Assembly: GCA_016935765.1 (NCBI GenBank)
Contig: JAFGQG010000020.1
Location: forward strand, 1 to 47,168
Origin: a bacterium
GTDB lineage: Bacteria > UBP14 > UBA6098 > JAFGQG01
DNA length: 47,168 nucleotides
Direction: 5' to 3'
Shown here: positions 1 through 32,576 of the stretch, in pieces
Layout: each line of letters starts with the position of its first letter
How positions within the stretch are numbered: position 1 is the stretch's first letter
The notes under the pieces: generated by a model
Seen by the model: the letters and a program-made list of their open reading frames with translations, nothing else
Database searches by the model: none
Told to the model about the DNA's origin: nothing
Position numbers and translations under genes: made by a program

Positions 1-163
1 ACGACGCCCTTCATGTATCCCCACTCCATTCTTGTCATTTTGTCCAGCGCATGAGAAATATAGACCCGATTTAAAGGGGATTACGACCGCCTGCCGTCTG
101 GGTGCTATCATCGCCTGCCGTCTGGGTGCATGAGAAATATAGACCCGATTTAAAGGGGATTAC
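1..163 (+). CRISPR. 3' end of a CRISPR-like array, cut by the window edge
   Basis: Bases 1-5 (acgac) match the last five bases of a 37-base repeat at 51-87, which ends GATTTAAAGGGGATTACGAC. A 34-base copy that loses the final gac is at 130-163. The intervals are 45 bases (6-50) and 42 bases (88-129). The second interval is itself an 18-base sequence duplicated around TATCAT. Repeat and spacer lengths fit CRISPR, and a truncated last repeat is typical of an array's leader-distal end. The repeat core is shared with the mini-array at 748-858. No cas gene is visible and only three copies are seen, so another interspersed repeat family is possible. Confidence 0.6.
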
Positions 164-165
164 CA

Positions 166-194
166 ATCCAAAATTTTGAAACAAAATTTTGGAT
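166..194. repeat. AT-rich hairpin, copy 1 of 3
   Basis: ATCCAAAATTTTG and its reverse complement form a perfect 13-bp stem around an AAA loop, three bases after the terminal repeat. The same hairpin follows the repeats at 859-887 and, with a shorter 11-bp stem, at 1828-1852. It could end array transcription, but no T-run follows, so a structural or mobile repeat unit is equally possible. Confidence 0.75.
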
Positions 195-654
195 ATAGCG
201 TTGGGAAAAAAACGGTTATTCTTGACTTTCTCCGGAATAAGCCTAATATATGATTGTGATTATGTCTGTAATACTAAAATCGATTTTCGTAAAATTTGAA
301 AAAGGCGAAATTGCCTGTAACTGTATGTAAGTAAATTAGTTATTTGATATTTAGTATTTTAATGGTTCTTTGAAAAAAGTACGCAAATACCCATTTTGAG
401 TTATTAGTTGAAGCGATTTTCGTAAATTTCGCTTTTGTACATTTTGGTACAACCGTAAGTTACTATATAGTAGTGAGTTATGAATGCACATTTTTTGTGC
501 TTATATGATTTTTACGAAAATCCCCAAAATTCCCAAAATGGTCTTTGATTTTCGTAAAACTATATCATTGTATATCAATGACATAACTAAAAATCAGCCA
601 TTTTTTCCTGGTTTTTAGAATCAAAATTAAGTCGATTTTCGTACTTTTTGACGT
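195..654. other. AT-rich noncoding stretch with five GATTTTCGTA(AA) motifs
   Basis: I see no credible gene. The motif CGATTTTCGTA(AA), allowing one change, occurs on the plus strand at 281-293, 414-426, 547-558 and 633-643, and inverted at 511-522. Spacing is irregular (about 85-135 bases) and the last copy lies about 12 bases before the leader at 655. This looks like a set of protein-binding sites; what binds is unknown. Confidence 0.6.
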
Positions 655-747
655 TTTTAGTGTAATGTTATGATTCATTTTAATTTACAACTGATTTTAA
701 TGTTTACTATGTTCTTTGACAATTTTATAAGTTATTGTAATATAAGG
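655..747 (+). promoter_or_regulatory. CRISPR-like leader with sigma70 promoter, copy 1
   Basis: This AT-rich sequence lies directly before the first repeat. It carries TTGACA (716-721), a 16-base gap and TAATAT (738-743), so transcription would start at about the first base of the repeat. Together with the beginning of the repeat it matches 1621-1732 at 104 of 112 positions without gaps. A conserved leader before the first repeat is what a CRISPR array has. The start site so close to the repeat is slightly unusual. Confidence 0.6.
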
Positions 748-858
748 TATTTAGCATTTAGACTCGATTTAAAGAGGATTACGACTCCACGCAATATTCT
801 CACTACTTGGCCTCTCATATTATTTAGCATTTAGACTCGATTTAAAGAGGATTACGAC
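748..858 (+). CRISPR. Minimal CRISPR-like array: two repeats, one spacer
   Basis: Two identical 38-base repeats (748-785 and 821-858) flank a unique 35-base spacer (786-820). The repeat ends CGATTTAAAGAGGATTACGAC, against CGATTTAAAGGGGATTACGAC in the array at the left edge. The CCC/GGG of one form and CTC/GAG of the other would pair around the eight-base GATTTAAA loop, a compensatory change that supports an RNA hairpin in the repeat. No cas genes are nearby. Confidence 0.6.
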
Positions 859-887
859 ATCCAAAATTTTGAAACAAAATTTTGGAT
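859..887. repeat. AT-rich hairpin, copy 2 of 3
   Basis: This is identical in stem and loop to the copy at 166-194 (13-bp stem, AAA loop) and starts one base after the second repeat of the mini-array. The fixed position after the repeats makes it part of the duplicated unit rather than of the toxin-antitoxin genes that follow. Confidence 0.75.
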
Positions 888-927
888 ATAGGGTAAAGAA
901 AATGCAAAAAAAAAACTAAAAAAAAGT

Positions 928-956
928 TTGTAAATTGAAACTGTTAGCATTATATT
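928..956 (+). promoter_or_regulatory. Candidate promoter of the first vapBC pair
   Basis: TTGTAA (928-933) and TATATT (951-956) are 17 bases apart and about 43 bases before the antitoxin start. The -35 box is weak, and no clear operator palindrome was found. Confidence 0.35.
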
Positions 957-998
957 AGATTTGCATAATTCCTAAACTTTTACACGCGGGAAGTTAAA

Positions 999-1190
999 AT
1001 GGAAAAAACATTGTTAGAATACAAAATTTATGAAATAGAGAAAGAACTCGAAAAGCTTAAATCTGTAATCGTTAATTCTAAAAGAAACAACAACAAAGGT
1101 TTTATTACACTTGCTGGAATATTGAAGAATGAAACAGATTTATCACTTGAAGAAATAAAATCTTTCAAATATAATGCCAAGGGTTTTTAA
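999..1190 (+). CDS. vapB: VapB-like antitoxin
   Basis: This 63-residue protein is most probably the antitoxin of the PIN toxin that starts at the next base. Residues 1-25 are rich in Glu, Lys and Leu and look like a short coiled coil. The tail, with a GFITLAGILKN segment, probably binds the toxin. No classical AbrB or ribbon-helix-helix DNA-binding fold is evident. A GGAAG ribosome-binding site lies a few bases before ATG. The layout resembles the antitoxin at 4465-4665 (short coiled coil, then a Gly-x-Leu/Ile-containing tail), but similarity is low. Function is assigned mainly from position and size. Confidence 0.65.
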   Translation: MEKTLLEYKIYEIEKELEKLKSVIVNSKRNNNKGFITLAGILKNETDLSLEEIKSFKYNAKGF

Positions 1191-1580
1191 TTGAAATATT
1201 TGCTTGATACTCACACAATATACTGGTTTTTTGAAAATCCTGATAAACTAGGAAGAAAAGCCCGTAAAATTTTAGAAACTAGAGGAAATCAATTTCTGAT
1301 CCCCTCTATCGTAATGGCAGAACTGAAATATATCTTTAGAAAATTTAAAATCCTTAATAAGTTTAAGAAGGTTTTTTCCGAAATAACTTCTGATTATAAT
1401 TGCATAATATTACCCCTTAATGAAGATATAGTTGAAAAAATGGATGCAAATCTGGAAATGCACGATAGTATTATCATAACCTCTGCAATTAATTATAAAA
1501 AGATTCAAAAAGAAGATGTAAAAATAATTACAAAAGATAAAATGATACAAAAAATTAGCCTTGTCGATACTATATGGTAG
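1191..1580 (+). CDS. vapC: VapC-type PIN-domain ribonuclease toxin
   Basis: A 129-residue PIN-domain protein predicted to cleave RNA when free of its antitoxin. The acidic metal-binding residues are visible: Asp6 in LLDTH, Glu44 in MAELK, Asp92 in MHDS and Asp116 in ITKD. Length is normal for VapC. The start is TTG, immediately after the antitoxin's stop codon, which implies translational coupling. The gene is followed within 40 bases by the second copy of the CRISPR-like leader. The toxin at 4665-5063 shares the Asp-Thr-His and IPxIVxAEL segments and is a divergent relative. Confidence 0.88.
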   Translation: MKYLLDTHTIYWFFENPDKLGRKARKILETRGNQFLIPSIVMAELKYIFRKFKILNKFKKVFSEITSDYNCIILPLNEDIVEKMDANLEMHDSIIITSAINYKKIQKEDVKIITKDKMIQKISLVDTIW

Positions 1581-1620
1581 CGTAGTTCTATATAAGGGGT
1601 ATTTTCCTATTATTTTATGA

Positions 1621-1713
1621 TTTTAGTGTAATGTTGTGATTCATTTAAATTTACAACTGATTTTAATGTTTACTATGCTCTTTGACAATTTTCTAATTTA
1701 TTGTAATATAAGG
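1621..1713 (+). promoter_or_regulatory. CRISPR-like leader with promoter, copy 2
   Basis: This is a near-duplicate of 655-747. The -35 TTGACA (1682-1687) and -10 TAATAT (1704-1709) with 16-base spacing are unchanged, while most differences lie outside the boxes. It again runs directly into the start of a repeat. Conservation of the promoter suggests both copies are, or recently were, used. Confidence 0.6.
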
Positions 1714-1825
1714 GGTTTAGCAATTAGACTCGTATCCAAGGCAGAGCCTTGGCTTGTAAAGAGAAGTTTTTGAAGAAAACTTCCAAAATCCCGGTGCTTC
1801 AGCTTCGAGATTAAGGATTAACGAC
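1714..1825 (+). repeat. CRISPR-like repeat split by two hairpin-forming inserts
   Basis: The repeat begins normally (TTTAGCAATTAGACTCG, to 1732), resumes as TAAAGAG (1757-1763) and ends as GGATTAACGAC (1815-1825). The first insert (1733-1756) contains CCAAGGC-AGA-GCCTTGG, a 7-bp hairpin. The second (1764-1814) overlaps a hairpin of GAAGTTTT and AAAACTTC with a five-base loop (1763-1783) and ends with GGTGCTTCAGC. A sequence like the second insert recurs at 2508-2561. The copy is probably inactive as a CRISPR repeat. Confidence 0.55.
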
Positions 1826-1827
1826 AT

Positions 1828-1852
1828 CCAAAATTTTGAGACAAAATTTTGG
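1828..1852. repeat. AT-rich hairpin, copy 3 of 3
   Basis: CCAAAATTTTG-AGA-CAAAATTTTGG has an 11-bp stem. It follows the broken repeat just as copies 1 and 2 follow theirs, and the second toxin-antitoxin pair comes after it. Confidence 0.7.
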
Positions 1853-1871
1853 GTAAATTAACATTTGTGTC

Positions 1872-1900
1872 TTGACACATTATATGAAATGTGTTAAATT
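1872..1900 (+). promoter_or_regulatory. Promoter and operator of the RHH/MazF pair
   Basis: TTGACA (1872-1877), a 17-base gap and TAAATT (1895-1900) form a good sigma70 promoter about 20 bases before the start codon. Between the boxes, ACACATT (1875-1881) and AATGTGT (1888-1894) form a 7-bp inverted repeat with a six-base centre. A ribbon-helix-helix dimer would fit such a site, so autorepression is likely. Confidence 0.7.
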
Positions 1901-1920
1901 GGCGTTAGGAGGTGAAAAAA

Positions 1921-2163
1921 ATGCCTGAAACAGCCTTAAAACGAAAAAGACTAAGTATCGACCTATCACCAGAAGAACATAGAAAAATTAAAGCATATTC
2001 AGTTATACATGACAAAACAATTAGAGAATATGTTCTTGAAGCCGTCCGGGAACAAATTAGAATAGAAGAAGATAAACATTTGAATAGTATTACTACTAAT
2101 ATTAGTACTGTTCTAAAGGAACTATGGGATAATAAAAAGGATGCATCCTATGACCAAATTTAA
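1921..2163 (+). CDS. Ribbon-helix-helix antitoxin
   Basis: An 80-residue antitoxin with an N-terminal ribbon-helix-helix DNA-binding fold: the strand KRLSIDLS, then helices SPEEHRKIKAYSVIHD and TIREYVLEAVREQI. The C-terminal part, rich in charged residues, would neutralise the MazF-like toxin encoded next. I chose ATG at 1921 over an in-frame GTG at 1912 because that GTG lies inside the ribosome-binding site AGGAGGTG, correctly spaced from 1921. The end overlaps the toxin start. Autorepression through the 7-bp inverted repeat upstream is likely. The pair follows the second leader-repeat-hairpin unit, as vapBC follows the first. Confidence 0.85.
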   Translation: MPETALKRKRLSIDLSPEEHRKIKAYSVIHDKTIREYVLEAVREQIRIEEDKHLNSITTNISTVLKELWDNKKDASYDQI

Positions 2164-2488
2164 ACATGGTGATGTTGTTCTTGTAGAAGTTGTATTCTCT
2201 GAAGGAACAGAAACTAAAAAAAGACCAGCCCTAATAATAAGTAGTGATGATTATCATAAAAGCCGTCAGGAAGTTATAATTTTAGGTATTACCAGTAATG
2301 TTAAAAGAATCTTATTTGGTGATACCAAGATAGATAGTTGGAAAGAAGCAGGATTGTTGTACCCTTCTGTTGTTGCGGGGATTATTCAAACAATAAAACA
2401 GAATATGATAGTCCAAAAACTAGGTGCTCTCTCAAAACAGGATTTAGAAAAAGTCAAATTGAATATTGGAAAAACAATAGGATTCTGA
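2150..2488 (+). CDS. MazF/PemK-family mRNA interferase toxin
   Basis: A 112-residue protein of the MazF/PemK fold, predicted to cut mRNA at short sequence motifs. Visible family features are the start FKHGDVVLVEVVFSEG, the KKRPALIISSDDYH segment with the conserved Arg-Pro, and a SVVAGIIQTIKQNMIVQKLGAL core strand region. The start at 2150 has AAGGA about nine bases upstream; an in-frame ATG at 2141 would sit almost on it, so it is less likely. The gene overlaps the antitoxin end by 14 bases, as expected for a coupled pair. Confidence 0.88.
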   Translation: MTKFKHGDVVLVEVVFSEGTETKKRPALIISSDDYHKSRQEVIILGITSNVKRILFGDTKIDSWKEAGLLYPSVVAGIIQTIKQNMIVQKLGALSKQDLEKVKLNIGKTIGF

Positions 2489-2507
2489 TATATAATTATA
2501 GCCATCT

Positions 2508-2579
2508 TGGAGTTTTAGAAGAAAAACTGCTAAAAGATCGGTGCTTCAGCTCAGAGATTAACCCGTTTTAAAGGGGACG
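2508..2579 (+). repeat. Relic of the hairpin element plus CRISPR-like repeat core
   Basis: Bases 2508-2561 resemble the second insert in the broken repeat (1764-1814), with a shorter hairpin AGTTTT/AAAACT (2511-2516 and 2523-2528) and the shared ending GGTGCTTCAGC..AGATTAA. It runs straight into CCCGTTTTAAAGGGGACG (2562-2579), which resembles the repeat core of the left-edge array. This appears to be a degraded fourth copy of the unit. Confidence 0.5.
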
Positions 2580-3106
2580 TTTTAATTTACGATTGACTAT
2601 TGATTATTTCCCCTAACTCCCCACTAAAAATGTTGAATGATTCTACTCCAAACAAGCGCAATTGATAAGCGTATTTGCATTTGAATAAGCTTGCTTTACT
2701 CTGGAGTAAGATCCCACGTGATAATTTTATTATAGGTTTAATACTTCCTATAAAGTTATCTTATGGTGATCCTTTGCATATCCACTTTACACTCTGGATG
2801 ACATTTTCGGGTGTTGGTGGTTCGAAGGGAATGGACAAAAACACCATCAAACCTAACACAAAAAAAAACGGGCATTAAATATATTTAGATAGCTAAATGA
2901 TATACAGTCTGAAAAAATAATGATGTGTTGATATGGTCAGAAGAAGGTTTTTTCTTTTTTTATATTAGCGTTTATCAGCGTTAATCTGCGGTTAATTTCA
3001 TTGACGAACAATTTTACATTTTTTCCCTTTTCACATACTTCTCAAATAATATATTATTCTTGAGGTTAATTTTTGCGATTAACTCTACGGATTTGAGGTT
3101 TGAACA
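2580..3106. other. Noncoding stretch between the TA island and mrfB
   Basis: I see no supported gene. A 67-codon open frame at 2675-2878 starts with TTG, has no clear ribosome-binding site and no recognisable domain. At 2967-2996 three imperfect 10-base units follow one another (AGCGTTTATC, AGCGTTAATC, TGCGGTTAAT). The remainder is AT-rich and could contain the mrfB promoter. Confidence 0.5.
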
Positions 3107-4210
3107 ATGCCAACTGAAGATAAAGAACGCGACGAACTGATAGAAAAACTATCCCAGAAGTGGAAGAAGCGCCTCAAAGAGGTCAGGGAGTACGAGATCA
3201 CTGATGAGGAGGATGGAAAAGGCGGTAAATTCGTGCCATCGGGTAGCAATATCGTACACCCGGGGGATTTTCAAAAAGCGGAACAGCTAAAGAATAAACT
3301 TAGAAAAAAGTACAAAGGCAAAACCTTCGATGATGTTTTTAATGGAACCGTGCTAAACACTCCTCACGGGATATGTTATCATATTGAAAGCCGGTTCAAG
3401 ATCGATTTCGATATTATTTCTCCGGAAAAGTTGAAAAAAAAGCTGCTAAACTCTATGAAGTTGATTTACGGCATTGGCGATGTAACTGAAACCATGCTTA
3501 AAAATGATGGTTATCATACAATTAAAGACCTGGTAAAACACCCCGTTTATAAAAAGAGGGCGGAGGAATGCCTTCGGTCTTTCGAAAGTGCTGATTGTTT
3601 GAAACTATCTGAGCTTGTGGGGCACTGGTATTCGAAATCCCACCCGTTATCACTGTTCACATCGGGTTTTCACAAGAAGGAGGATTTCATTTTCTTTGAC
3701 CTGGAGACTATGGGACTCTTCAACCGCCCGATAATCCTGTTCGGGATGGCGAGGGTCGAAGGGAATGAAATTGTTATTTCGCAGTATTTGCTTAGGGATT
3801 TTACGGAAGAACCCGGAGCGCTTTATGGCTTTATTAAAAACATGAACGAGCAGACAGCGCTAGTGACTTTTAACGGGAAATCTTTTGACGTACCTTACGT
3901 CGAGGAGCGGTTGGCTTATTATGGCATTCAGGGAAGTCTTCGGATCCCGCATTTTGATATCCTGCATTTCTCGCGTCGCGCCTGGAAGGGGAAATTCCCT
4001 GATTGCAGCCTGAGCACACTGGAGCGCTATCTCTTTGGTATTCAAAGGATTGATGACGTTCCTGGAGCACTTGTACCTGATTTCTATGACGAATTCGTCA
4101 GCACTAAAAATATTGGTACGTTGGTGCCCATCGTGGAGCATAACAAGCAGGATCTGATATCGCTGGCAAGATTGTTCGCAAAGCTGCACGAAGAGTGGGG
4201 GGAAGAGTAA
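3107..4210 (+). CDS. mrfB: MrfB/YprB-like DEDDh exonuclease
   Basis: A 367-residue RNase H-like exonuclease. The catalytic set is complete: Asp198 and Glu200 in FFDLET, Asp261 in FNGKSFD, and His345 with Asp349 in HNKQD, which is the DEDDh arrangement. A helix-hairpin-helix-like segment (about residues 118-160, LIYGIGDVTETML) precedes it. In Bacillus subtilis MrfB (YprB) works with the helicase MrfA (YprA) in excision repair of mitomycin C damage independent of UvrABC. The mrfA homologue is here too, just beyond a toxin-antitoxin pair. The protein ends 18 residues after the last catalytic residue, so the C-terminal tetratricopeptide region I recall in the Bacillus protein is missing. Family assignment is firm; the repair role is inferred. 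Confidence 0.85.
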   Translation: MPTEDKERDELIEKLSQKWKKRLKEVREYEITDEEDGKGGKFVPSGSNIVHPGDFQKAEQLKNKLRKKYKGKTFDDVFNGTVLNTPHGICYHIESRFKIDFDIISPEKLKKKLLNSMKLIYGIGDVTETMLKNDGYHTIKDLVKHPVYKKRAEECLRSFESADCLKLSELVGHWYSKSHPLSLFTSGFHKKEDFIFFDLETMGLFNRPIILFGMARVEGNEIVISQYLLRDFTEEPGALYGFIKNMNEQTALVTFNGKSFDVPYVEERLAYYGIQGSLRIPHFDILHFSRRAWKGKFPDCSLSTLERYLFGIQRIDDVPGALVPDFYDEFVSTKNIGTLVPIVEHNKQDLISLARLFAKLHEEWGEE

Positions 4211-4361
4211 CTTTATTAATTTTCAAAACCGTTAATTTGTAAAGTATAAAACGAATAACGAATAAGGAATACTGAATCAGGATTTTAGAAGTAAAAACCA
4301 GAAAGAAAGCAAAAAAAGGGAGTTCTTTACTATATTATTCCATTAATACTGGAATTATTTG

Positions 4362-4400
4362 TTGATTTTATTATTTGCTGTTTTATATTATAATATAAAA
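4362..4400 (+). promoter_or_regulatory. Candidate promoter and 20-bp palindromic operator of the second vapBC
   Basis: TTTTATATTATAATATAAAA at 4381-4400 is a perfect 20-bp palindrome. TTGATT (4362-4367), a 16-base gap and TATATT (4384-4389) could be the promoter, so a repressor on the palindrome would cover the -10 box. The centre is about 75 bases before the antitoxin start. The rest of 4211-4464 is AT-rich with no gene. Confidence 0.45.
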
Positions 4401-4464
4401 GTTTTGGAATATATAAATTTAACCATTTGACAATAGTAAGAGTAATTAACACGAGGTCAATATT

Positions 4465-4665
4465 ATGATACAAGATTCAGATAAAATAATAAGTGAAATT
4501 GAGAATATTCAGCAGAGACTAGAGTTATTGAAAAAGAAGCTTTCAAAGAGAGATAAAAAGCAGAAAGTGAAATTAGAGGGATTGTGGGATGGATGGAGTG
4601 TACCAGATGATTTTTTTAAAGAAGCAAAATTGGAGATATTTAAAACTTCTTATAATATAAAATAA
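4465..4665 (+). CDS. vapB: VapB-like antitoxin
   Basis: A 66-residue antitoxin. Residues 1-35 form a heptad-like coiled coil (IISEIENIQQRLELLKKKL). The C-terminal part, LEGLWDGWSVPDDFFKEAK, resembles the toxin-binding tail of VapB proteins, which often carry a G(I/L)W(K/D)G motif. A GAGG ribosome-binding site lies upstream. Its stop codon overlaps the toxin's start by one base, so translation is probably coupled. No DNA-binding fold is obvious; repression through the upstream palindrome is possible but unproven. Confidence 0.75.
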   Translation: MIQDSDKIISEIENIQQRLELLKKKLSKRDKKQKVKLEGLWDGWSVPDDFFKEAKLEIFKTSYNIK

Positions 4666-5063
4666 TGCCTGAACAATATTTTATCGCAGATACTCATGCT
4701 ATTTTATGGTTTATTGCAAGAGATAAAAAACTATCTTCCAAAGCGCACGATATATTTAAACTTGCTGAAGAAGGTGAAGTCGGAATTCTAATACCAACGA
4801 TTGTCCTTGCTGAACTTCTTTATATTACTGGTAAGAATAAGCCTCCATTAGAGTTAGAGCAGGTTATTTCTATAATTGAAGATGGTTCTGGGTTTTCGAT
4901 TGTTCCCTTTGATCTTGGTGTTTTTAAAATTATGATTGAGTTTTCTGGAGAGTTAGAGATTCATGATAAAATTATAGCTGCGACTTCATTAATTTATGAT
5001 GCAATAATAATTAGTAAAGACCAAGAACTCATAAGTATAAATACAGTAAAAACGGTCTGGTAA
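4665..5063 (+). CDS. vapC: VapC-type PIN-domain ribonuclease toxin
   Basis: A 132-residue PIN-domain RNase with the full acidic set: Asp9 in IADTH, Glu50 in VLAEL, Asp101 in IHDK and Asp119 in SKDQ. It shares the ADTH/AILWF start and IPTIVLAEL core with the toxin at 1191-1580, so the window holds two divergent members of one VapC subfamily. It sits between mrfB and mrfA, which are neighbours in Bacillus, so this pair probably inserted there. Confidence 0.9.
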   Translation: MPEQYFIADTHAILWFIARDKKLSSKAHDIFKLAEEGEVGILIPTIVLAELLYITGKNKPPLELEQVISIIEDGSGFSIVPFDLGVFKIMIEFSGELEIHDKIIAATSLIYDAIIISKDQELISINTVKTVW

Positions 5064-5144
5064 AATCTTCATTTATATTTATTTCTTTTTTATCTTAGAT
5101 TCCAGTTTAAATTCATAATATGAATCTAATATTGAATAAAACTT

Positions 5145-7469
5145 ATGGTTAAATACATAATAAACGAATTCAAGTTCAAACCGGAATTTGAGGACCGCAT
5201 CGAACATATTGAGATACTGCCTGAAAAGCAAACTCAATACAGCGAACTTGAACAGCAGTTACCCGAAAATCTGAAACTATTCCTTGATAGCAGGGGGATG
5301 AGGCTTTATTCTCACCAAAGTGAAGCACTCAAGGCACTCAGAGCGGGGAAGAATGTTGTGATAACAACGCCGACCGCTTCTGGGAAAACCATGGCTTTCA
5401 ATCTCCCGATATTTGAGTGTCTCGGCAAAAACGAGAACGCGACCGCGCTGTACCTGTATCCAACGAAAGCCCTGTCAAATGACCAATTTAAGACATTATT
5501 GGAATTAGAGAAGGAAAGCGGTTTGAAGCTGAAACCTGAAGTATATGATGGCGACACTCCGCAAAGCAGAAGACCCCGCATCAGGGCGAACTCACGAATA
5601 ATAATCAGCAATCCTTACGAGCTGCATTACGTTCTTCCATGGCACTATAAGTGGCAGAAATTCATGAGCAGTCTCGAGTTCGTGGTGCTCGACGAAGCCC
5701 ACCGCTACAGGGGAGTCTTCGGATCGAACATCGCTTTTCTAATCAGGCGTTTGAGAAGGATATGCAGCTACTACGGTTCGAACCCTCAGTTCATTATATC
5801 CACCGCAACCCTTGCAAATCCTATCGAGTTCAGTGAAAATCTTACGGGGCTAAGTTATGACCTGGTCGATGAAGACGGTTCGCCACGTGGGAGCAAGTAT
5901 TTTGTATTGTATAATCCCTATTTCGATGGCGTTGGTACTCTTTCAACTCATCAGGAGACGAAAAACCTGTTCAAGTTTTTTGTGAAGAGGGGTCTGCAGA
6001 CCATCTGTTTCACTATCTCGAGGAAGATGGCTGAGCTGATAATTTTCTGGGCGAGGAAGGAGTTAGAGCAATCGGACCCGGAGTTGCTCGAGCGGATCAC
6101 CTCTTACCGGGCGGGTTACCTTCCAGAGAAGAGAAGGGAGATCGAGACGAAGCTTAAGGAGGGATATTTGAAGGGTATAACTTCGACTAATGCGCTCGAG
6201 TTGGGAATAGACATTGGGTCTCTGGATAACGTGATAATTTCCGGTTTTCCGGGGACTATTATCTCGACCTGGCAGCAGGCGGGGCGCGCTGGCAGAGGCA
6301 CTGATGAATCCATGGCAATTTTGGTGGCTTTTCACGATCCGCTCGACCAGTACTTCATGAAGCACCCAAAAGCTTTGTTCGAGAAATCACATGAACACGC
6401 GATCATCGACATTAAGAACGATTACATTCTCTTCGGGCATTTGATGTGCGCGGCATCAGAACTCCCTCTCGACCTCGAGAAGGATGTCGTATTCTTTGGC
6501 GAAGATTTTACCAAAATGATCGAAGCGCTAAAGAAAGCCGGTCTGATAAGCGAAACGCCTAACGGGTGGGTATATTCAGGAAAGGGGAGAGCTACTGATC
6601 TCGTCAGCCTGGATAACGTTTTCGGGGATATCTACAAGGTTGTTTGCGAGGGAAGATTGCTGGAGACCATGGACAAAACGCAGGCATACCGGGAAGCCCA
6701 CAAGGAAGCAGTGCTGCTCAACCAGGGAGAAACCTATATCGTGGAGGAACTCGATCTCGAAAATACACTTGCTAGAGTTGTGAAAAAAGACGTCGATTAT
6801 TACACCCAACCGATGAAGGAAATTGATATTGAGATAATCAAACAATACAAGAGCCGGGAAATAGGGAAGTTTAGAGTATCGTATGGAAAAGTGGAGGTTT
6901 CTGAGCATTACATTGCATACAGGATAATGAGATATGACAAGATAGTTGGAACTGGTGAGATAGATCTGCCGCCCCTGAAATTTAAAACTGTGGGTTTGTG
7001 GTTCACAGTCCTCGAGTATTTTGAGGATTTGATCTGGGAGAAGCGGAAACTGGACCCGGATATTTATGAGAAATTCAAGGCTAAAACAGAGCGTGGATTG
7101 AAGAGAACGGTTTTCATGGGCGGATTGCATGGGGTAGAGCATGCCATGATCGGGATCATGCCGTTTCACGTGATGTGCGACAGGTGGGACATCGGGGGAG
7201 TGTCATCGATCGATCATCCCAACACGAAAGATCCTACTGTGTTTATCTACGATGGCTATGAAGGGGGGATCGGTCTAGCGGAGAAAGCATACTTCCTGGT
7301 CGATAAAATTGCGGACACTGCGCTGGAACTGGTTAGGGATTGCAAGTGCTATGATGGTTGCCCGGGGTGTATATATTCACCCAAGTGCGGAAGTTCAAAC
7401 GAGCCGCTTGACAAGAAGGCTACTATTGCTATCCTGGAATTATTGATGGGACTAATGAAAGAATCCTGA
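5145..7469 (+). CDS. mrfA: MrfA/YprA-like DEAH helicase with DUF1998 zinc domain
   Basis: A 774-residue superfamily 2 DNA helicase. Walker A is TPTASGKT (75-82), Walker B DEAH (183-186), motif III STATLANP, and the second RecA domain has GRAGR in QQAGRAGRG. The C-terminal third matches the DUF1998/MrfA type, ending in a four-cysteine cluster (CKCYDGCPGCIYSPKC) that binds metal in this family. In Bacillus subtilis MrfA with MrfB repairs mitomycin C lesions independently of UvrABC; the partner exonuclease gene is at 3107-4210. Length is close to that of the Bacillus protein. The role is inferred from family and gene pairing. Confidence 0.92.
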   Translation: MVKYIINEFKFKPEFEDRIEHIEILPEKQTQYSELEQQLPENLKLFLDSRGMRLYSHQSEALKALRAGKNVVITTPTASGKTMAFNLPIFECLGKNENATALYLYPTKALSNDQFKTLLELEKESGLKLKPEVYDGDTPQSRRPRIRANSRIIISNPYELHYVLPWHYKWQKFMSSLEFVVLDEAHRYRGVFGSNIAFLIRRLRRICSYYGSNPQFIISTATLANPIEFSENLTGLSYDLVDEDGSPRGSKYFVLYNPYFDGVGTLSTHQETKNLFKFFVKRGLQTICFTISRKMAELIIFWARKELEQSDPELLERITSYRAGYLPEKRREIETKLKEGYLKGITSTNALELGIDIGSLDNVIISGFPGTIISTWQQAGRAGRGTDESMAILVAFHDPLDQYFMKHPKALFEKSHEHAIIDIKNDYILFGHLMCAASELPLDLEKDVVFFGEDFTKMIEALKKAGLISETPNGWVYSGKGRATDLVSLDNVFGDIYKVVCEGRLLETMDKTQAYREAHKEAVLLNQGETYIVEELDLENTLARVVKKDVDYYTQPMKEIDIEIIKQYKSREIGKFRVSYGKVEVSEHYIAYRIMRYDKIVGTGEIDLPPLKFKTVGLWFTVLEYFEDLIWEKRKLDPDIYEKFKAKTERGLKRTVFMGGLHGVEHAMIGIMPFHVMCDRWDIGGVSSIDHPNTKDPTVFIYDGYEGGIGLAEKAYFLVDKIADTALELVRDCKCYDGCPGCIYSPKCGSSNEPLDKKATIAILELLMGLMKES

Positions 7470-11543: not shown

Positions 11544-13034
11544 TTACTTAGCATATAGCATTTTACCGGTTTTGGAACTCAAATCTTCAGCCTTGATGGA
11601 ATAAAAATAAATTCCGCTTGGGATACTACCCGGTTCCCAGGTGATGAAATTTGTGCCAACACCAATGTTTTCTATCATGTCGTTAGAAATGATTTTGCCA
11701 TTAATATCAGTTACAGTTAAATTTGCATCGTAGTATTCTCTATCCGAAATAATTGTAATAGTTGTTTTGCTGTTGAAAGGATTGGGATAGTTTGGTTCCA
11801 GAGAGAATTTGTCAGGTTTCCCGGCATTGGCGTAATCACTAATGCCAATATCAGCCGTTTCAACCGTGTCTCTTCCGTCGCAGAAACGGAAGAATGCTAT
11901 TTCATAACCACCAGTATAATCATAATCAAAGTTTGAGCCATCATCATATTTATGATCGTCGCTACCAATAGTGTGGGGAGTTCCTTCGATAACCACCTGT
12001 CGAACGGTGGGAACATTATTATTTGCGTCGGTATATGTAACATGGAAAAGGTCATCTGGATCGAGCAAGACGCTGATTTTCCCTATTCCCGGGTCTGTAA
12101 GTGTGGGCGAATTATTAGTTGCAAGGTTTTTTGCGTGAATTCGTTGATAAAAGTAGCATCCTTGTGTATCATCGGCAAGTATAACATCCTCAGCACTAAG
12201 TCCAGTGATTTTTAGGGTTTGTCCTGCACATGTTAAGTATCCACAAGTCCAGGTTCCAAATTCAGCGTCAGAGGTTATATCGCTGATATTACACCGCATA
12301 TAAAGGTCGTTTCCAGAAATTTGCGTATCGATATTCCCAATCCTGGTTGGCAAGCCTCCGCTTCCAGTTTGTCTGAACAACCCTGTTTCATAAACACCTG
12401 TGACGCCAATATAAGTAAGCGCATAGTAGATTTCAGCTCCAGCGTTGTCAGGGTTCTGAAAGCCGAACGAATAAGCATTCCAGTTAAAAAATGAGCCGAA
12501 AGTCCAATCGCCTGAATCGTTGGATAATCTAACATATAATTTATCACCTGAGAAGCCCACCCACGAGCCGGTTAAATCTAAATCATCTTCAGATGTTCCC
12601 TCCAGGTCCCCGCTTGCCTCATCACAAGTTTGCGCAAGGAGTCCGGTATTTGGCGGCCATTGATTGCTTGAATTATTCGGGGCTTCAGTTGCCCAGTTCG
12701 TTGCGGTTTTTGTTCGAAAATAGTAAGTTAGAGTTCCGGAAGCAGGTAAGTTCTTTGTGCACTGCCAGGTATCGACATAATCTGTGCTGCCAATGTTAGT
12801 CATTGCCTGGCTTGAGAATGCCGGTACTGAAGTGCTGTAAAAAAGGTTAGCGCCTGTTACTGTGGCTACCGATCCTTCAGGTTTGGCATCTACATTGAAA
12901 TATACATTACCGTCATTGCCCCTGGCTGAGCAGGTAGGATTATTAACGACCGGGTAGATTTGTGCCCATAAAGAGCCTAAGTAAAAGGTTGATAAAATGA
13001 AAATTAGTCCAATAAATACCATTTTTTTGTACAT
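11544..13034 (-). CDS. Secreted protein with T9SS sorting domain, function unknown
   Basis: A 496-residue protein with an N-terminal signal peptide (hydrophobic residues about 5-24, cleavage near LWAQ). The C-terminal 80 or so residues are a type A T9SS sorting domain: NYPNPFNSKTTITI, then a GIYFYSIKAEDLSSKTGKMLYAK end. It should cross the outer membrane through the type IX system and be anchored or released. The middle (about 30-400) looks beta-rich with many aromatic and Asn/Gly residues; I recognise no catalytic motif. It is the last gene of an operon with pcm, the barrel protein and nnr (16-base gap). Confidence 0.8.
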   Translation of the reverse strand: MYKKMVFIGLIFILSTFYLGSLWAQIYPVVNNPTCSARGNDGNVYFNVDAKPEGSVATVTGANLFYSTSVPAFSSQAMTNIGSTDYVDTWQCTKNLPASGTLTYYFRTKTATNWATEAPNNSSNQWPPNTGLLAQTCDEASGDLEGTSEDDLDLTGSWVGFSGDKLYVRLSNDSGDWTFGSFFNWNAYSFGFQNPDNAGAEIYYALTYIGVTGVYETGLFRQTGSGGLPTRIGNIDTQISGNDLYMRCNISDITSDAEFGTWTCGYLTCAGQTLKITGLSAEDVILADDTQGCYFYQRIHAKNLATNNSPTLTDPGIGKISVLLDPDDLFHVTYTDANNNVPTVRQVVIEGTPHTIGSDDHKYDDGSNFDYDYTGGYEIAFFRFCDGRDTVETADIGISDYANAGKPDKFSLEPNYPNPFNSKTTITIISDREYYDANLTVTDINGKIISNDMIENIGVGTNFITWEPGSIPSGIYFYSIKAEDLSSKTGKMLYAK

Positions 13035-22825: not shown

Positions 22826-24331
22826 ATGAAAAATAAATTACGTTTTATCGTGGTTTTAATTGCTGTTACAGTTTTTTATGCTCTTTCTTTAGGACAAGGA
22901 TTATATGAAACTGTGAATGAATCTGGTCGTTATGAACCATCAGTTGCGAAACTGCAAATGATTAAAGAGGCTATCAGTAGTAAAAATGCTGAGTGGACCG
23001 CGAAAATGCCAGGAAATATTCCTGAATTGATGCCTGTTCCTGATTATGGATATGAACGCGATTACTTTCGGCATTTTTATGATGCTCGCTCCAAGGATGT
23101 GCCGGATCATTTCGATTGGCGTGATCATGAGGGAGCAAACTGGCTTGGGTCCGTAAAAGACCAGGGCGCTATGGGAAGCTGTTGGGCTTTCGGCACCTGC
23201 GCTTGTATCGAACCCAAAATAAAGATCCATGCTGGTGATCCAGCACTGCCCGTGGATCTTTCGGAGAGTTACCTTGTGAATTGCAGCGATGCCGGCTCCG
23301 AAGATGGAGGATGGCAAAGATACGCTGCCGCCTACATAATGGAAAATGGCATCGTTGATGAACAGTGTTCACCTTATGTTGATTACCCATTACCATGTTC
23401 CCTGATGTGCTACGACTGGGAAAGCCGATTGACCTACATAGACAGCTACGACTGGGTGTTCAGCCACAACCTTGAAGTTTATAAGCAGGCGATAATGGAA
23501 GGTCCGCTTGCTGCTTCGATCGCGGTTTACGAAGATTTCTTTTATTATGAGTCCGGGGTATATGAATACACTTATGGAGAGTTAAGTGGAGGACATGTTG
23601 TTCTTATCTGCGGTTGGGATAATGAGGATAGTTGTTGGATAGGTAAAAACTCGTGGGGAACAGATTGGGGAGAAAACGGGTATTTTAAAATCAAGTGGGG
23701 GGAGTGCTGGATCGAAATCGACCAGATGAGTGTCGAGGTCTCGCACTATCCACCCTATGGATTCCCTGACCCGCAGAGACCGGGAAATAGTGTGGTCATA
23801 AATCATGGACCAATAAATTTCAACTGGTCTAACCTGGATAGGGCTGCAAATTACGAGATCATGGTGGCAAGGGACGTCGAGTTTAGAAACATAGTCTTCT
23901 ATGAAACAGGTCTGCCGGAAAGTTACTTCTCCTACTCCGGTGAATTGGATAGAGGCATTCATTATTGGCGCGCGAGAGGCTGTAACGATGATGGATGCGG
24001 TTCATGGTCTTCCGGGTACACATTCTTCTATACCGCCACCGGTATCGATGAAGTTATTCAACCCGATAATTATCAATTATCATGGAAAGCATTTCCCAAT
24101 CCTTTCAATAGTACGGTTACTATTTCAGTGGTCCTGCCAACTAAAAAACCCTTGAACGTTTCGATATATAATTTATGGGGAGAAGAGATAAAGGAATTCT
24201 ATAACGATGGTGCTAAAGAAGGTTTGATCGAATTTACATGGCAGCCTTGTGAGCTATCCACTGGCATATACCTGTATAAAATTGAAACTCCTGATGAATC
24301 GTACGTGGACAGGCTCTATTACCTGAAATAA
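22826..24331 (+). CDS. Papain-family (C1A) cysteine peptidase with T9SS sorting domain
   Basis: A 501-residue exported peptidase. A signal peptide (1-24, ending LSLGQ) is followed by a short propeptide-like region, then the papain fold with all catalytic residues: Gln113 (oxyanion hole), Cys119 in GSCWAFG, His257 in GGHVVL and Asn275 in GKNSWGTDWG. A fibronectin-like stretch (about 310-400) follows. The C-terminus (about 415-501) is a type A T9SS sorting domain with FPNPFNSTVTIS and a final RLYYLK. It should act outside the cell or on its surface. It stands alone, divergent from ftsY. Confidence 0.92.
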   Translation: MKNKLRFIVVLIAVTVFYALSLGQGLYETVNESGRYEPSVAKLQMIKEAISSKNAEWTAKMPGNIPELMPVPDYGYERDYFRHFYDARSKDVPDHFDWRDHEGANWLGSVKDQGAMGSCWAFGTCACIEPKIKIHAGDPALPVDLSESYLVNCSDAGSEDGGWQRYAAAYIMENGIVDEQCSPYVDYPLPCSLMCYDWESRLTYIDSYDWVFSHNLEVYKQAIMEGPLAASIAVYEDFFYYESGVYEYTYGELSGGHVVLICGWDNEDSCWIGKNSWGTDWGENGYFKIKWGECWIEIDQMSVEVSHYPPYGFPDPQRPGNSVVINHGPINFNWSNLDRAANYEIMVARDVEFRNIVFYETGLPESYFSYSGELDRGIHYWRARGCNDDGCGSWSSGYTFFYTATGIDEVIQPDNYQLSWKAFPNPFNSTVTISVVLPTKKPLNVSIYNLWGEEIKEFYNDGAKEGLIEFTWQPCELSTGIYLYKIETPDESYVDRLYYLK

Positions 24332-24386: not shown

Positions 24387-25100
24387 TTATTTCATATATA
24401 TAAGCTTACCCTTAGTAAGGTAATGTCCGTCAAGGTTGAATCTATAGAAGTAATATCCTGTTGACACGGATTTGCCAAGATCATCCTTGGTGTCCCAAGT
24501 AACTTCGTGGGTTCCCTCTGAATAAGACCCATCAGCCAAAGTTTTTACCAATTTCCCTTCTATGGAATAAATATTTATATTCACATCAGCAGTTTGTGGA
24601 ATGCTGAATTGTATTGAAGTTTCCGAATTGAAAGGATTAGGATAAGAATATACTTTCATGCTTTTTATTTTATTGATTTCATTAATTCCAACTTCAGGGT
24701 CTTCTCCGGTAAAACCTTCGCCTCTATCCACAGTCTCGCCGTTGTGGGTTGTCTCCCAACTATAAAAGAAAACAGGACTGGTAGTATGGATAACGAAACC
24801 ACCCTGTGTTCCTCCTGGAGGAATACCTTCACCTTCTGTAACCCAGCCAGCCGCATTTTCCGTGTGACCGTACCCGGTGCCAGGACCTGTCCATGGCGAT
24901 TCGATTCCAGTAATTTCAGCGCCCTCTACCCAAACGTGGAAATCATTGATATTAGTGCCTGATGTATTTGTCACTTCGAACTCAACACTGAAAGGTGGAC
25001 CATCCGGCGATACAGTAACCCTTACTTCATCGGCTAAAACGAAGCTGCTTAACGCGGTCAGGATCAAGCTTGTTAAAACGATTGTTAGTGCCTTTTTCAT
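24387..25100 (-). CDS. Small secreted protein with T9SS sorting domain, function unknown
   Basis: A 237-residue exported protein. I place the start at 25100 (MKKALTIVLTSLILTAL, a clean signal peptide, cleavage near VLADE) because AAGGAGG lies upstream; the frame stays open to an ATG 51 codons earlier, without signal-peptide character. Residues 25-140 look like a beta-sandwich (VRVTVSPDGPPFSVEFEVTN); no catalytic motif is seen. The T9SS domain starts at about 155 with YSYPNPFNSETSIQF and ends KGKLIYMK. Its promoter region contains a perfect 18-bp palindrome. Confidence 0.82.
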   Translation of the reverse strand: MKKALTIVLTSLILTALSSFVLADEVRVTVSPDGPPFSVEFEVTNTSGTNINDFHVWVEGAEITGIESPWTGPGTGYGHTENAAGWVTEGEGIPPGGTQGGFVIHTTSPVFFYSWETTHNGETVDRGEGFTGEDPEVGINEINKIKSMKVYSYPNPFNSETSIQFSIPQTADVNINIYSIEGKLVKTLADGSYSEGTHEVTWDTKDDLGKSVSTGYYFYRFNLDGHYLTKGKLIYMK

Positions 25101-25235
25101 TTTTCCTCCTTGGTTTTGGTTTCTTGTTTCTTTCGCCCTTATGTATTTCAATTTCCGTGCCAAAAACTGTAACAATATATGTAGCAATATGTTATGAAAA
25201 AGGGTTAAAAATATAAAATAATGTTTAGACGCAGG

Positions 25236-25253
25236 TTGGGGAATATTCCCCAA
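25236..25253. promoter_or_regulatory. Perfect 18-bp palindrome, candidate operator
   Basis: TTGGGGAATATTCCCCAA is perfectly symmetrical and lies 136 bases before the start of the small T9SS-exported protein. A second half-site, TGGGGAATAAT, follows at 25268-25278. Such symmetry suggests a dimeric repressor or activator; I could not assign a regulator. Confidence 0.55.
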
Positions 25254-29363: not shown

Positions 29364-32300
29364 TCATTTTATTAACGCAATTTTGCAAAAATGAACTTCA
29401 CTTTTACCGCCCTTTTGAGCTTCTATCTGACAAATATATACTCCTGATGGAATTCCTACAGAATCCCACCTGTATTCGTTGAATTCGTGCTCTTTTCCAG
29501 TGATATTTTCCTCCATGATCAAATTACCAGTCTGATCAAAAATTCTCAATTTAAGTTCTGCGGGTTTATTCAGGAAATACCTGATCTCAGTGTACCTGTC
29601 AGTGGGATTTGGGTAATTGAAGAACGATGAGATGAAATCCTCTGAGATGTTAGCTGTTGATGTTGGTAGGTTTCCCAGAAAAATGTTTTGGTGCAGTGAT
29701 GAGTAACCCCACATTCGCCAGCAATTATTTTCGAGAGAGCCTTCCATGTTCCAGATGAATAACGCGCCTTCCAGGCTGCCGGAAACCAGGCTGATGCTGG
29801 TTGAAGTGTCTATATTGCCGATAGCTGCTGACGCGTCAATGCCGCCACACGCCATTGGAAATCCTTCAACCCTCGCACCATTATGATGAAACGCGTACAT
29901 GTTCGCAACACCGTCACCAATTATTATTTCAGGTTCATCATCATTATCGATATCGGCAGTGATGGGTCCGGCAGTAAGAGTGCTATCGAATTTGATCGGA
30001 AAATTTGAGACCATCGCTCCACTATGATGAAACGCATAGAGTTTTTTCCCTCCTGTAAATATTATCTCGAGGTCTCCGTCCGCGTTAAGGTCTGAGAAAA
30101 CCGGTACACTTACATTGGCGACTTCATCAAAGAATCTTGGGAAACTTCCGTAATATTCCCCGTCAAGGTCCATGATGTAGATAGCTCCTTCAGCGCTTAC
30201 ACAGGCTAATTCTAATATATCGTCATTATTTATATCGCCTGCGATCAAGGTTGATATGTAACCGTGGGGCAATTCTTTTTGCCAGATGGTGGAGTCGCCA
30301 AAACCAATTTTAAAAAGCCTGGCATAGCGCTGCTGGGCAAGCAGATAGAATGTGTTGTCGTCCATGGGTATCACTCCGGAGATAATCCCCCTGACGTCAC
30401 CTTCGTCCAGAATGTCTCCATCGCCCGAAATTATATACCATTTTCCATTGGAAGCTCCAACGAAAATTTCAAGTAATGAGTCCGATGCGTCGAAATTCGC
30501 GATTACGGGAGGGTAGTAGAAATGTCCGTTCAATCGAAGCGGAAATCCAGGTAGAACGTCGGCATAACCAGATTCGTCCCGGTCTTCGCATTCCCAAGCA
30601 TAGACAAGACTACCGGAAGTAGCAGCAACCACTTCCATAACTCCATCGCCATCTATGTCGCCAATAGTTGGAATAGTGAAATACGTATTTTCCCTGTAGT
30701 AGAAAGAAGGAAGGGGATAGAGTGCCGTATCGCCTGTATAGCCGATGATTCCGAGTGTATCTGCATTAGGAATGATCTTCTCGCCATTTCCGAACCATCC
30801 TAAAACGAAGCTCTCCATAGTCGTGAAGATCTCTTCTGTGCCGTCTGCGTTGCAATCAGCCAGTACGATGGGGTCATCCAAAGCCCAGCCGGTAATTCTC
30901 ATTGTAGCCGGGTTGCACTTCGAAGAGGTTATCCTTAAATCCATTTTTGTAGCAGGCGCGGAGATACCGGTTATCGAGACGCCGGTTTGCCCCCCGAGAT
31001 TGCTTTCAGTTGAGGGAATAGTGAATGGCGTAAACTCCGTTACATTACCTTCCCAGTAATAATCGAGGGAATCGCCATAGGTTATGTATATTCCAAGGTC
31101 CTGAGGTCCTTCTGCCTCCTCAAGGTCGATAAACCTCCTCATATCGTCCCACTGAAGAGTGTTATTGTCGAAATTGTTTTGCCCGTTCCCTACATAATCC
31201 ATATACGCGATAGCTTCATCGACGTGCCATATTAACAGTCCAGAGCCAGGGAGAAGGTAATCATATTTGGGTATGAAATTTTCATCGTCATCGACAAGAC
31301 CCAGGAAAACACCGGTGTTCGGATCCTGTTTGAGAAAAAGCTCCTCATTTCCGGGATTATATTGCCTGTTCTCGATCAGGAAATATTCGTATTCATTTAT
31401 TGGCACTTTGATGATAGTGGTATCATTCACATCATTGTAAATTTCACAGGCGGTAATTGAGAAACTTTCCTTATCGCAATTCCATTCGTGAATTTCTTCC
31501 CAGCCTAGGTAAGCCCGACCCCATGGTGAGGGATAACCCGGGATTGCCCCGAAAACCGGTAGGGTATCAAGATATACAATAGAGGTATCAATGAGAGTAC
31601 CCTCAATATTGATAAGAGTTTCGGGATAGAAAGGCAGATAGACTCCGAACATGTGACCGTTATCCATCAGAGAGAAGTATCCGACCTGGGTAATGAAATT
31701 ATAAGTAGAATAGAGGTCGACCAATCCGAGCTGGTGACCGAATTCGTGTATAAGTAGCCCATTAAGAGCGATAAATTGCCCGTCCTGGGAGGCGTATTCG
31801 GGGATGATCAATCCGTCTGTTATGATGCCATCCACAACTGGCTCGGAATAGGTGATGAAAGCGGTTGGAAGGTCGTCAGGGCTTGGAACGAAGGTTTCCG
31901 GGTCCCATTCCTCGTAATAGGAACCGATATCGTTTTGCCAATCAGCTCCGGCATGAAATAATAGATAAGCATCGTAATCGGATAAATTGACATCGCCACT
32001 TTCAGAGACCAGGTTCCAGGCATCAATGAAAAAGCTTGAAACACGCGCGGTAATATCATCGCCAAACCAGCTATTGGGACCATAGTAAGCCATGCTGTCA
32101 GGAAGGCGGTAAGCATCGTTATTGCCTTCGGGGTAGATGTCCCATTCAACAATGAGCTGGCTATCTGAGATGGCGGTGTAGTAATTGCTGAGCGCGCGTA
32201 AATGTGAGTCGAAGTAAACCTTGTCATGCGGAGTTCTATCGAAAGGCGTTGGGGATTCTTCAGAGGGCGAAAGGTCGAAAATCCCGGGACCGGTGCTTCG

Positions 32301-32576
32301 CGGATTCGAATCGGGCTGAAATTCAACCCTTACCACACATATCCTTAAACGTGCTGGTGCGTGCGTGTACGTTTTTGGCAAACCCCAGGGATCATCCCTG
32401 TCGATCGACAGCAGATTCCGGGTTGACCTGTCATCCTCAAAATGCCGCCATTGCTGTGAAAACTCACTCTGTACCGGTTTCCGGCTTATCAAATGTGTTT
32501 GAGCAGTAATACTGCAAACTGCTAAAAACAATACAGCCAATGATATCGCCGCTCTTGTTAGTTTATGTATTCTCAA
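29364..32576 (-). CDS. M6-family metallopeptidase with T9SS sorting domain
   Basis: A 1070-residue exported protease. After a signal peptide (1-25, ending SITAQ), the M6 (immune inhibitor A-like) domain carries the zinc site HEFGHQLGLVD, with His277, Glu278, His281 and the downstream Asp287. From about 560 to 960 several FG-GAP/VCBS-like repeats appear (GDIDGDGVMEVV, SDLNADGDLEIIFT, ADIDNDDEPEIIIG), with Asp-rich calcium-binding loops and probably a propeller. The C-terminal 90 residues are the T9SS domain, with NYPNPTDRYTEIR in place of the usual YPNPFN. It is the third gene of the porU cluster, likely a secreted or surface peptidase. Confidence 0.93.
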   Translation of the reverse strand: MRIHKLTRAAISLAVLFLAVCSITAQTHLISRKPVQSEFSQQWRHFEDDRSTRNLLSIDRDDPWGLPKTYTHAPARLRICVVRVEFQPDSNPRSTGPGIFDLSPSEESPTPFDRTPHDKVYFDSHLRALSNYYTAISDSQLIVEWDIYPEGNNDAYRLPDSMAYYGPNSWFGDDITARVSSFFIDAWNLVSESGDVNLSDYDAYLLFHAGADWQNDIGSYYEEWDPETFVPSPDDLPTAFITYSEPVVDGIITDGLIIPEYASQDGQFIALNGLLIHEFGHQLGLVDLYSTYNFITQVGYFSLMDNGHMFGVYLPFYPETLINIEGTLIDTSIVYLDTLPVFGAIPGYPSPWGRAYLGWEEIHEWNCDKESFSITACEIYNDVNDTTIIKVPINEYEYFLIENRQYNPGNEELFLKQDPNTGVFLGLVDDDENFIPKYDYLLPGSGLLIWHVDEAIAYMDYVGNGQNNFDNNTLQWDDMRRFIDLEEAEGPQDLGIYITYGDSLDYYWEGNVTEFTPFTIPSTESNLGGQTGVSITGISAPATKMDLRITSSKCNPATMRITGWALDDPIVLADCNADGTEEIFTTMESFVLGWFGNGEKIIPNADTLGIIGYTGDTALYPLPSFYYRENTYFTIPTIGDIDGDGVMEVVAATSGSLVYAWECEDRDESGYADVLPGFPLRLNGHFYYPPVIANFDASDSLLEIFVGASNGKWYIISGDGDILDEGDVRGIISGVIPMDDNTFYLLAQQRYARLFKIGFGDSTIWQKELPHGYISTLIAGDINNDDILELACVSAEGAIYIMDLDGEYYGSFPRFFDEVANVSVPVFSDLNADGDLEIIFTGGKKLYAFHHSGAMVSNFPIKFDSTLTAGPITADIDNDDEPEIIIGDGVANMYAFHHNGARVEGFPMACGGIDASAAIGNIDTSTSISLVSGSLEGALFIWNMEGSLENNCWRMWGYSSLHQNIFLGNLPTSTANISEDFISSFFNYPNPTDRYTEIRYFLNKPAELKLRIFDQTGNLIMEENITGKEHEFNEYRWDSVGIPSGVYICQIEAQKGGKSEVHFCKIALIK

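Follow-up and report, generated by a model that had tools for sequence, protein, structure and literature searches.

The left end of this contig carries what is probably (we put it at roughly 0.7) the end of a decayed, duplicated, cas-less (orphan) CRISPR locus, situated inside an insertion hotspot for toxin-antitoxin (TA) genes. The window, that is the whole stretch of DNA analysed, is an entire contig (G000:C80) of 47,168 bases from a draft assembly of 3.98 Mb in 200 contigs (89.9% complete), so the assembly holds no sequence to its left. Its first five bases, ACGAC (positions 1-5; all coordinates are on the forward strand unless stated otherwise), correspond to the terminal part of a further CRISPR repeat, which indicates that the contig breaks within an array. 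The first 2.5 kb are AT-rich, with a GC content of 27-36%, whereas most of the remainder has about 40-45%.

Four repeats of two related types follow. Repeats A1 (49-87) and A2 (128-166) are 39 nt long, and repeats B1 (748-785) and B2 (821-858), which are identical, 38 nt; both types share TAGACYCGATTTAAAGRGGATTAC, and the repeats carry the 8-nt handle ATTACGAC. We took as CRISPR-like any direct repeats of about 21-48 nt with spacers between them that are unique and similar in length. Here, three spacers are visible, all unique: s0 (6-48, 43 nt), s1 (88-127, 40 nt) and s2 (786-820, 35 nt), giving repeat periods of 73, 79 and 82 nt. With up to two mismatches, the 17-nt repeat core occurs five times in the 47 kb, against 0.02 expected, and the repeat is absent from every other contig of the assembly. 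Types A and B differ by one C-G stem pair that became T-A on both sides (CCC/GGG to CTC/GAG), a compensatory change that is a single event in a short stem, and single-repeat folds are no better than shuffles. A2 is a degenerate end repeat in which the final three bases have changed from GAC to CAA. Repeat length and period, unique spacers, the contig start at a repeat end, the paired stem change, the handle and an adjoining leader thus make it likely, as far as sequence can tell, that these are CRISPR remains, and the earlier description of CRISPR-like repeats with leaders is well supported. That description had named a left unit at 51-194; its repeats and hairpin are real, but they belong to the last part of an array whose beginning is lost at the contig edge.

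One point against our reading is that no spacer has an identified target. s0 has no match in IMG/VR (exact 27-mer) and none in phage records, s1 has none in IMG/VR or phages, and s2 gave no credible match there either, a weak test for a host so poorly sampled; to our knowledge, most spacers of most CRISPR arrays lack a known match. The search for self-targeting or TA-targeting spacers yielded nothing convincing: on the reverse strand s1 reaches 20 of 39 matches, a score attained by none of 60 shuffles, yet the figure carries no correction for the six tests made, and the match includes no long word. s1 also contains an internal 18-nt duplication (88-105 and 112-129), the second copy of which extends into the first bases of repeat A2.

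The first B repeat is adjoined by an AT-rich leader (leader 1, 635-747) with a promoter-like TTGACA-16-TAATAT at 716-743, and leader 2 (1601-1713), its copy, has a promoter-like site at 1682-1709; the promoter scan was permissive, returning 31 sites against 15.7 in shuffles. The earlier note had matched leader plus repeat start at 104 of 112 positions, which BLAST bears out (655-766 versus 1621-1732, 93% over 112 nt, 104/112, E 4e-42). The homology extends leftward beyond 655 and 1621 to 635 and 1601, so that the duplicated block spans 132 nt (635-766 and 1601-1732) at 89% identity. A BLAST search with 655-766 found no third copy in the 3.98-Mb assembly, and candidate extra copies within 195-633 were rejected as no better than shuffles. 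Upstream of leader 1, we noticed a cluster of motifs that had been overlooked: all five copies of GATTTTCGTA in the 47 kb (0.28 expected) lie within 282-643. Four are direct, at 282, 415, 547 and 634, spaced by 133, 132 and 87, the fifth is inverted (513-522, reverse strand), and the last copy sits where the duplicated leader begins.

A 29-nt AT-rich hairpin with a 13-bp stem closes each group of repeats. Its recurrence, described before, is confirmed genome-wide: with up to three mismatches there are only three copies, at 166-194 directly 3′ of A2, at 859-887 directly 3′ of B2, and, with one change, at 1826-1852, each just 3′ of the last repeat of its unit. Its folding energy is far lower than that of shuffled sequences (z -4.5). 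We rejected it as an intrinsic terminator, as there is no terminator-like site in 1-3200.

The two units that pair a leader with a hairpin are preserved to different degrees. Of the one or two repeats per unit reported earlier, unit 1 indeed has two, but unit 2 has a single one (1714-1825), and this is not intact. Its parts (1715-1732, 1757-1763 and 1815-1825) are split by two palindromic inserts, which the first reading had missed: TATCCAAGGCAGAGCCTTGGCTTG (1733-1756) interrupts the repeat after GACTCG, and a 51-nt double hairpin (1764-1814) interrupts it after TAAAGAG. The resulting stacked hairpins fold below shuffles (z -3.3). The first hairpin of the 51-nt insert, GAAGTTTTTGAAGAAAACTTCCAAAAT, has relatives on six other contigs (C198, C163, C27, C82, C197 and C190), most of which then carry a second, variable palindrome. 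Taken singly, their E-values (0.002 to 0.13) are weak; it is the shared two-hairpin plan that carries the case. This family, GAAGTTT..AAACTTCCAAAAT followed by a variable palindrome, comprises 1764-1814, 2511-2561 and loci L012, L015, L016, L018, L019 and L020. Since relatives occur on other contigs and only one of the six, the C82 copy, is inside a long open frame (161 codons, stop to stop), the insert looks, by sequence, like a dispersed extragenic hairpin element.

A relic at 2508-2579, proposed earlier, is real. It consists of a copy of the unit 2 insert (2511-2561; 82% identity, second hairpin included) followed by the repeat core ACCCGTTTTAAAGGGGA (2561-2577; one mismatch), and is not the leader relic it might have been: a leader copy there (TTTTAATTTACGATTGA) was rejected, the comparison of the relic with unit 1 giving p of about 0.07. 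As the relic is a second insert copy plus repeat core, related noncoding DNA in direct orientation flanks each of two TA pairs.

These pairs differ, as had been claimed, and Pfam supports the assignment to type II for all but one of the four genes. Behind unit 1 lies a VapC toxin with a PIN domain (1191-1580, 129 aa; PF01850, E 1.7e-9), which has no sequence match among solved structures. It is preceded by a 63-aa open reading frame (999-1190) without a Pfam family match, which we call VapB-like from its size and position before VapC. Unit 2 is followed by a ParD-type (RHH) antitoxin gene (1912-2163; PF09386, E 1.5e-10) and a PemK/MazF toxin gene (2141-2488, 115 aa; PF02452, E 2.1e-14); activity is predicted from these domains and the small antitoxin frames upstream. 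The permissive scan placed promoter-like sites between hairpin and TA pair in both units, at 928-956 in unit 1 and at 1872-1900 in unit 2 (TTGACA-17-TAAATT, overlapped by the inverted repeat ACACATT/AATGTGT). This suggests that neither pair needs the leader.

The surroundings also hold TA genes apart from the repeats. A third, VapBC-like pair (4465-5063), composed of an open reading frame at 4465-4665 and a PIN protein at 4665-5063, has neither leader nor repeat; two of the nine PIN matches in the genome are found here. The third pair separates an RNase H-like exonuclease gene (3107-4210) from a DEAH-box helicase gene (5145-7469, TIGR03817-like), which we take to be, perhaps, an MrfB/MrfA pair. 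The two genes overlap in the nearest relative, G001 (L054), the only same-family genome compared, where another gene lies 7 bases upstream of them and the corresponding site contains neither CRISPR nor TA genes. In the source contig, TA genes are found both upstream of the exonuclease gene and between it and the helicase gene. That TA genes gather here with or without CRISPR parts weakens any specific link between the two. Further along the contig are several predicted secreted proteins (11544-13034, 22826-24331, 24387-25253 and 29364-32576) with YPNPFN-type C-terminal tails, a feature of many FCB-group bacteria.

Models for Cas1, RAMP and Cas6 (PF10040) found zero matches in the 90%-complete assembly and worked in control genomes; the cas models searched were these three. 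The locus is therefore filed as an orphan array only, since a complete CRISPR-Cas locus calls for cas genes in the genome. With about 10% of the genome unassembled and the contig ending within an array, such genes may be located in the missing part. The Cas6 search was positive in two class relatives. In one of them, G006, which has Cas6, arrays with the repeats GTAAGACCTATTCGACATTCCCACGGGGAATTGAAAG and GTCGCAATCCCCTATTAGCCGAGGAAAGTTTTGAAAC are both truncated by contig ends (L055 and L056); one array adjoins several cas-type genes in a row, which we recognised by inspecting the frames rather than with models. Class relatives carry arrays built from other repeats, and we saw no leader similarity. 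Our own repeat is absent from all 16 class relatives, from GTDB contigs (exact degenerate patterns) and from IMG/VR contigs, and a plasmid search returned short weak hits only. The leader has no match in the other 116 of 117 genomes, barring one hit in G025 (E 5e-4) that lies inside a 617-aa coding frame and was rejected as chance.

A living CRISPR locus is an unlikely competitor. Here, the array would continue leftward, with cas genes in the unassembled part; units 1 and 2 would be secondary arrays of short length, with the TA pairs as neighbours. The contig does begin inside a repeat, much as the G006 contigs end in arrays, one of them beside its cas-type gene row; B1 and B2 are identical and leader 1 is intact. 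Against this stand the missing Cas1, RAMP and Cas6, the differences between repeats A and B, and the destroyed repeat of unit 2.

Readings that bind repeats and TA genes together fare far worse. An integron-style mobile cassette array, with leader-repeat-hairpin as recombination site and TA pairs as cargo, would explain why related noncoding blocks flank each of two TA pairs with different cargo. We hold it to be very improbable: we recognised no recombinase gene in the window, the repeats show spacers and a CRISPR period, the unit is missing from the plasmids, phages and relatives searched, and the third TA pair nearby has no such site. The proposal of repeated integration at leader-proximal repeats, one of two put forward in the earlier note, finds no support, as we recognised no integrase or cas gene here and the TA pairs sit after the hairpin, off the repeat boundary; the other, in which TA pairs lie between the pieces of a fragmented array, is the better fit. 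Equally doubtful is that leader-repeat-hairpin and type II TA pair form one module in which repeat RNA, or the direct repeats themselves, makes the TA pair guard the CRISPR locus against deletion; a working CRISPR-TA coupling is unlikely. The weakest candidate, in which protein toxins would take part in an addiction module like CreTA and a guide RNA from the unit 1 mini-array would direct a Cas effector to repress the TA operon, matches the leader-repeat-spacer-repeat plan of a two-repeat creA beside a toxin (PMC8501985) and is scarcely credible given that no spacer matches at nt 1-5 and 7-11, in five registers, anywhere in 1-5100 beyond the spacers themselves, s2 shows no excess complementarity to the TA region, the required Cas6 was not found, the unit 1 repeats are not degenerate, and each toxin is a protein that comes with its own antitoxin and predicted promoter.

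A decaying orphan locus thus remains our preferred reading. The changed end of A2, the split repeat of unit 2 and the insert copy after PemK all argue for decay; the identity of B1 and B2 argues against it. With the leaders 93% alike and their promoter-like sites kept, the decay could be a recent one, or leader 1 could still be in use. The leader-repeat-hairpin end of the array is present as a direct duplication, and we envision that both leaders formerly served spacer uptake and transcription. TA modules of type II, self-contained and with their own predicted promoters, would have come between the copies, and dispersed hairpin elements would later have inserted into the second copy's repeat, ending its use; the order of these events is our reconstruction. 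Recombination between leader 1 and leader 2 would delete 966 bp together with VapBC and leave a stable toxin behind. The TA pairs may therefore slow the loss of the locus, with toxins counter-selecting TA loss by recombination between the direct repeats. If TA pairs do protect the locus from deletion, this would be a protein-based counterpart of CreTA, although nothing found requires it. The locus is not evidence for a new regulatory system.

Among known systems, CreTA (type VIII TA; PMC8501985, PMC9458426) likewise places one spacer between two repeats next to a toxin gene. Its spacer seed (nt 1-5 and 7-11) is complementary to the toxin promoter (PMC8501985), whereas here no spacer has such a seed match, no cas genes of the Cas6/Cascade kind were found, and the unit 1 repeats are intact. 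CreTA has an RNA toxin under CreA control; the toxins recognised at this locus are PIN and PemK proteins with protein antitoxins (one of ParD type by Pfam), a difference from CreTA that the earlier note had already drawn correctly. VapBC and ParD/PemK(MazF) type II modules share with the pairs described here the small paired open reading frames, the PIN and PemK domains and their own predicted promoters; only the location is unusual. The locus also resembles orphan CRISPR arrays, which are common (PMC12814883), and multiple arrays that share leader and repeat within one genome, which also combine repeats, spacers and a leader in several short arrays. What sets this locus apart from them is that its copies lie within 2.6 kb, are interleaved with TA genes and include one repeat broken by inserts. 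It thereby illustrates how an orphan CRISPR locus might erode, through leader duplication, short arrays, hairpin elements in repeats and intervening TA modules.
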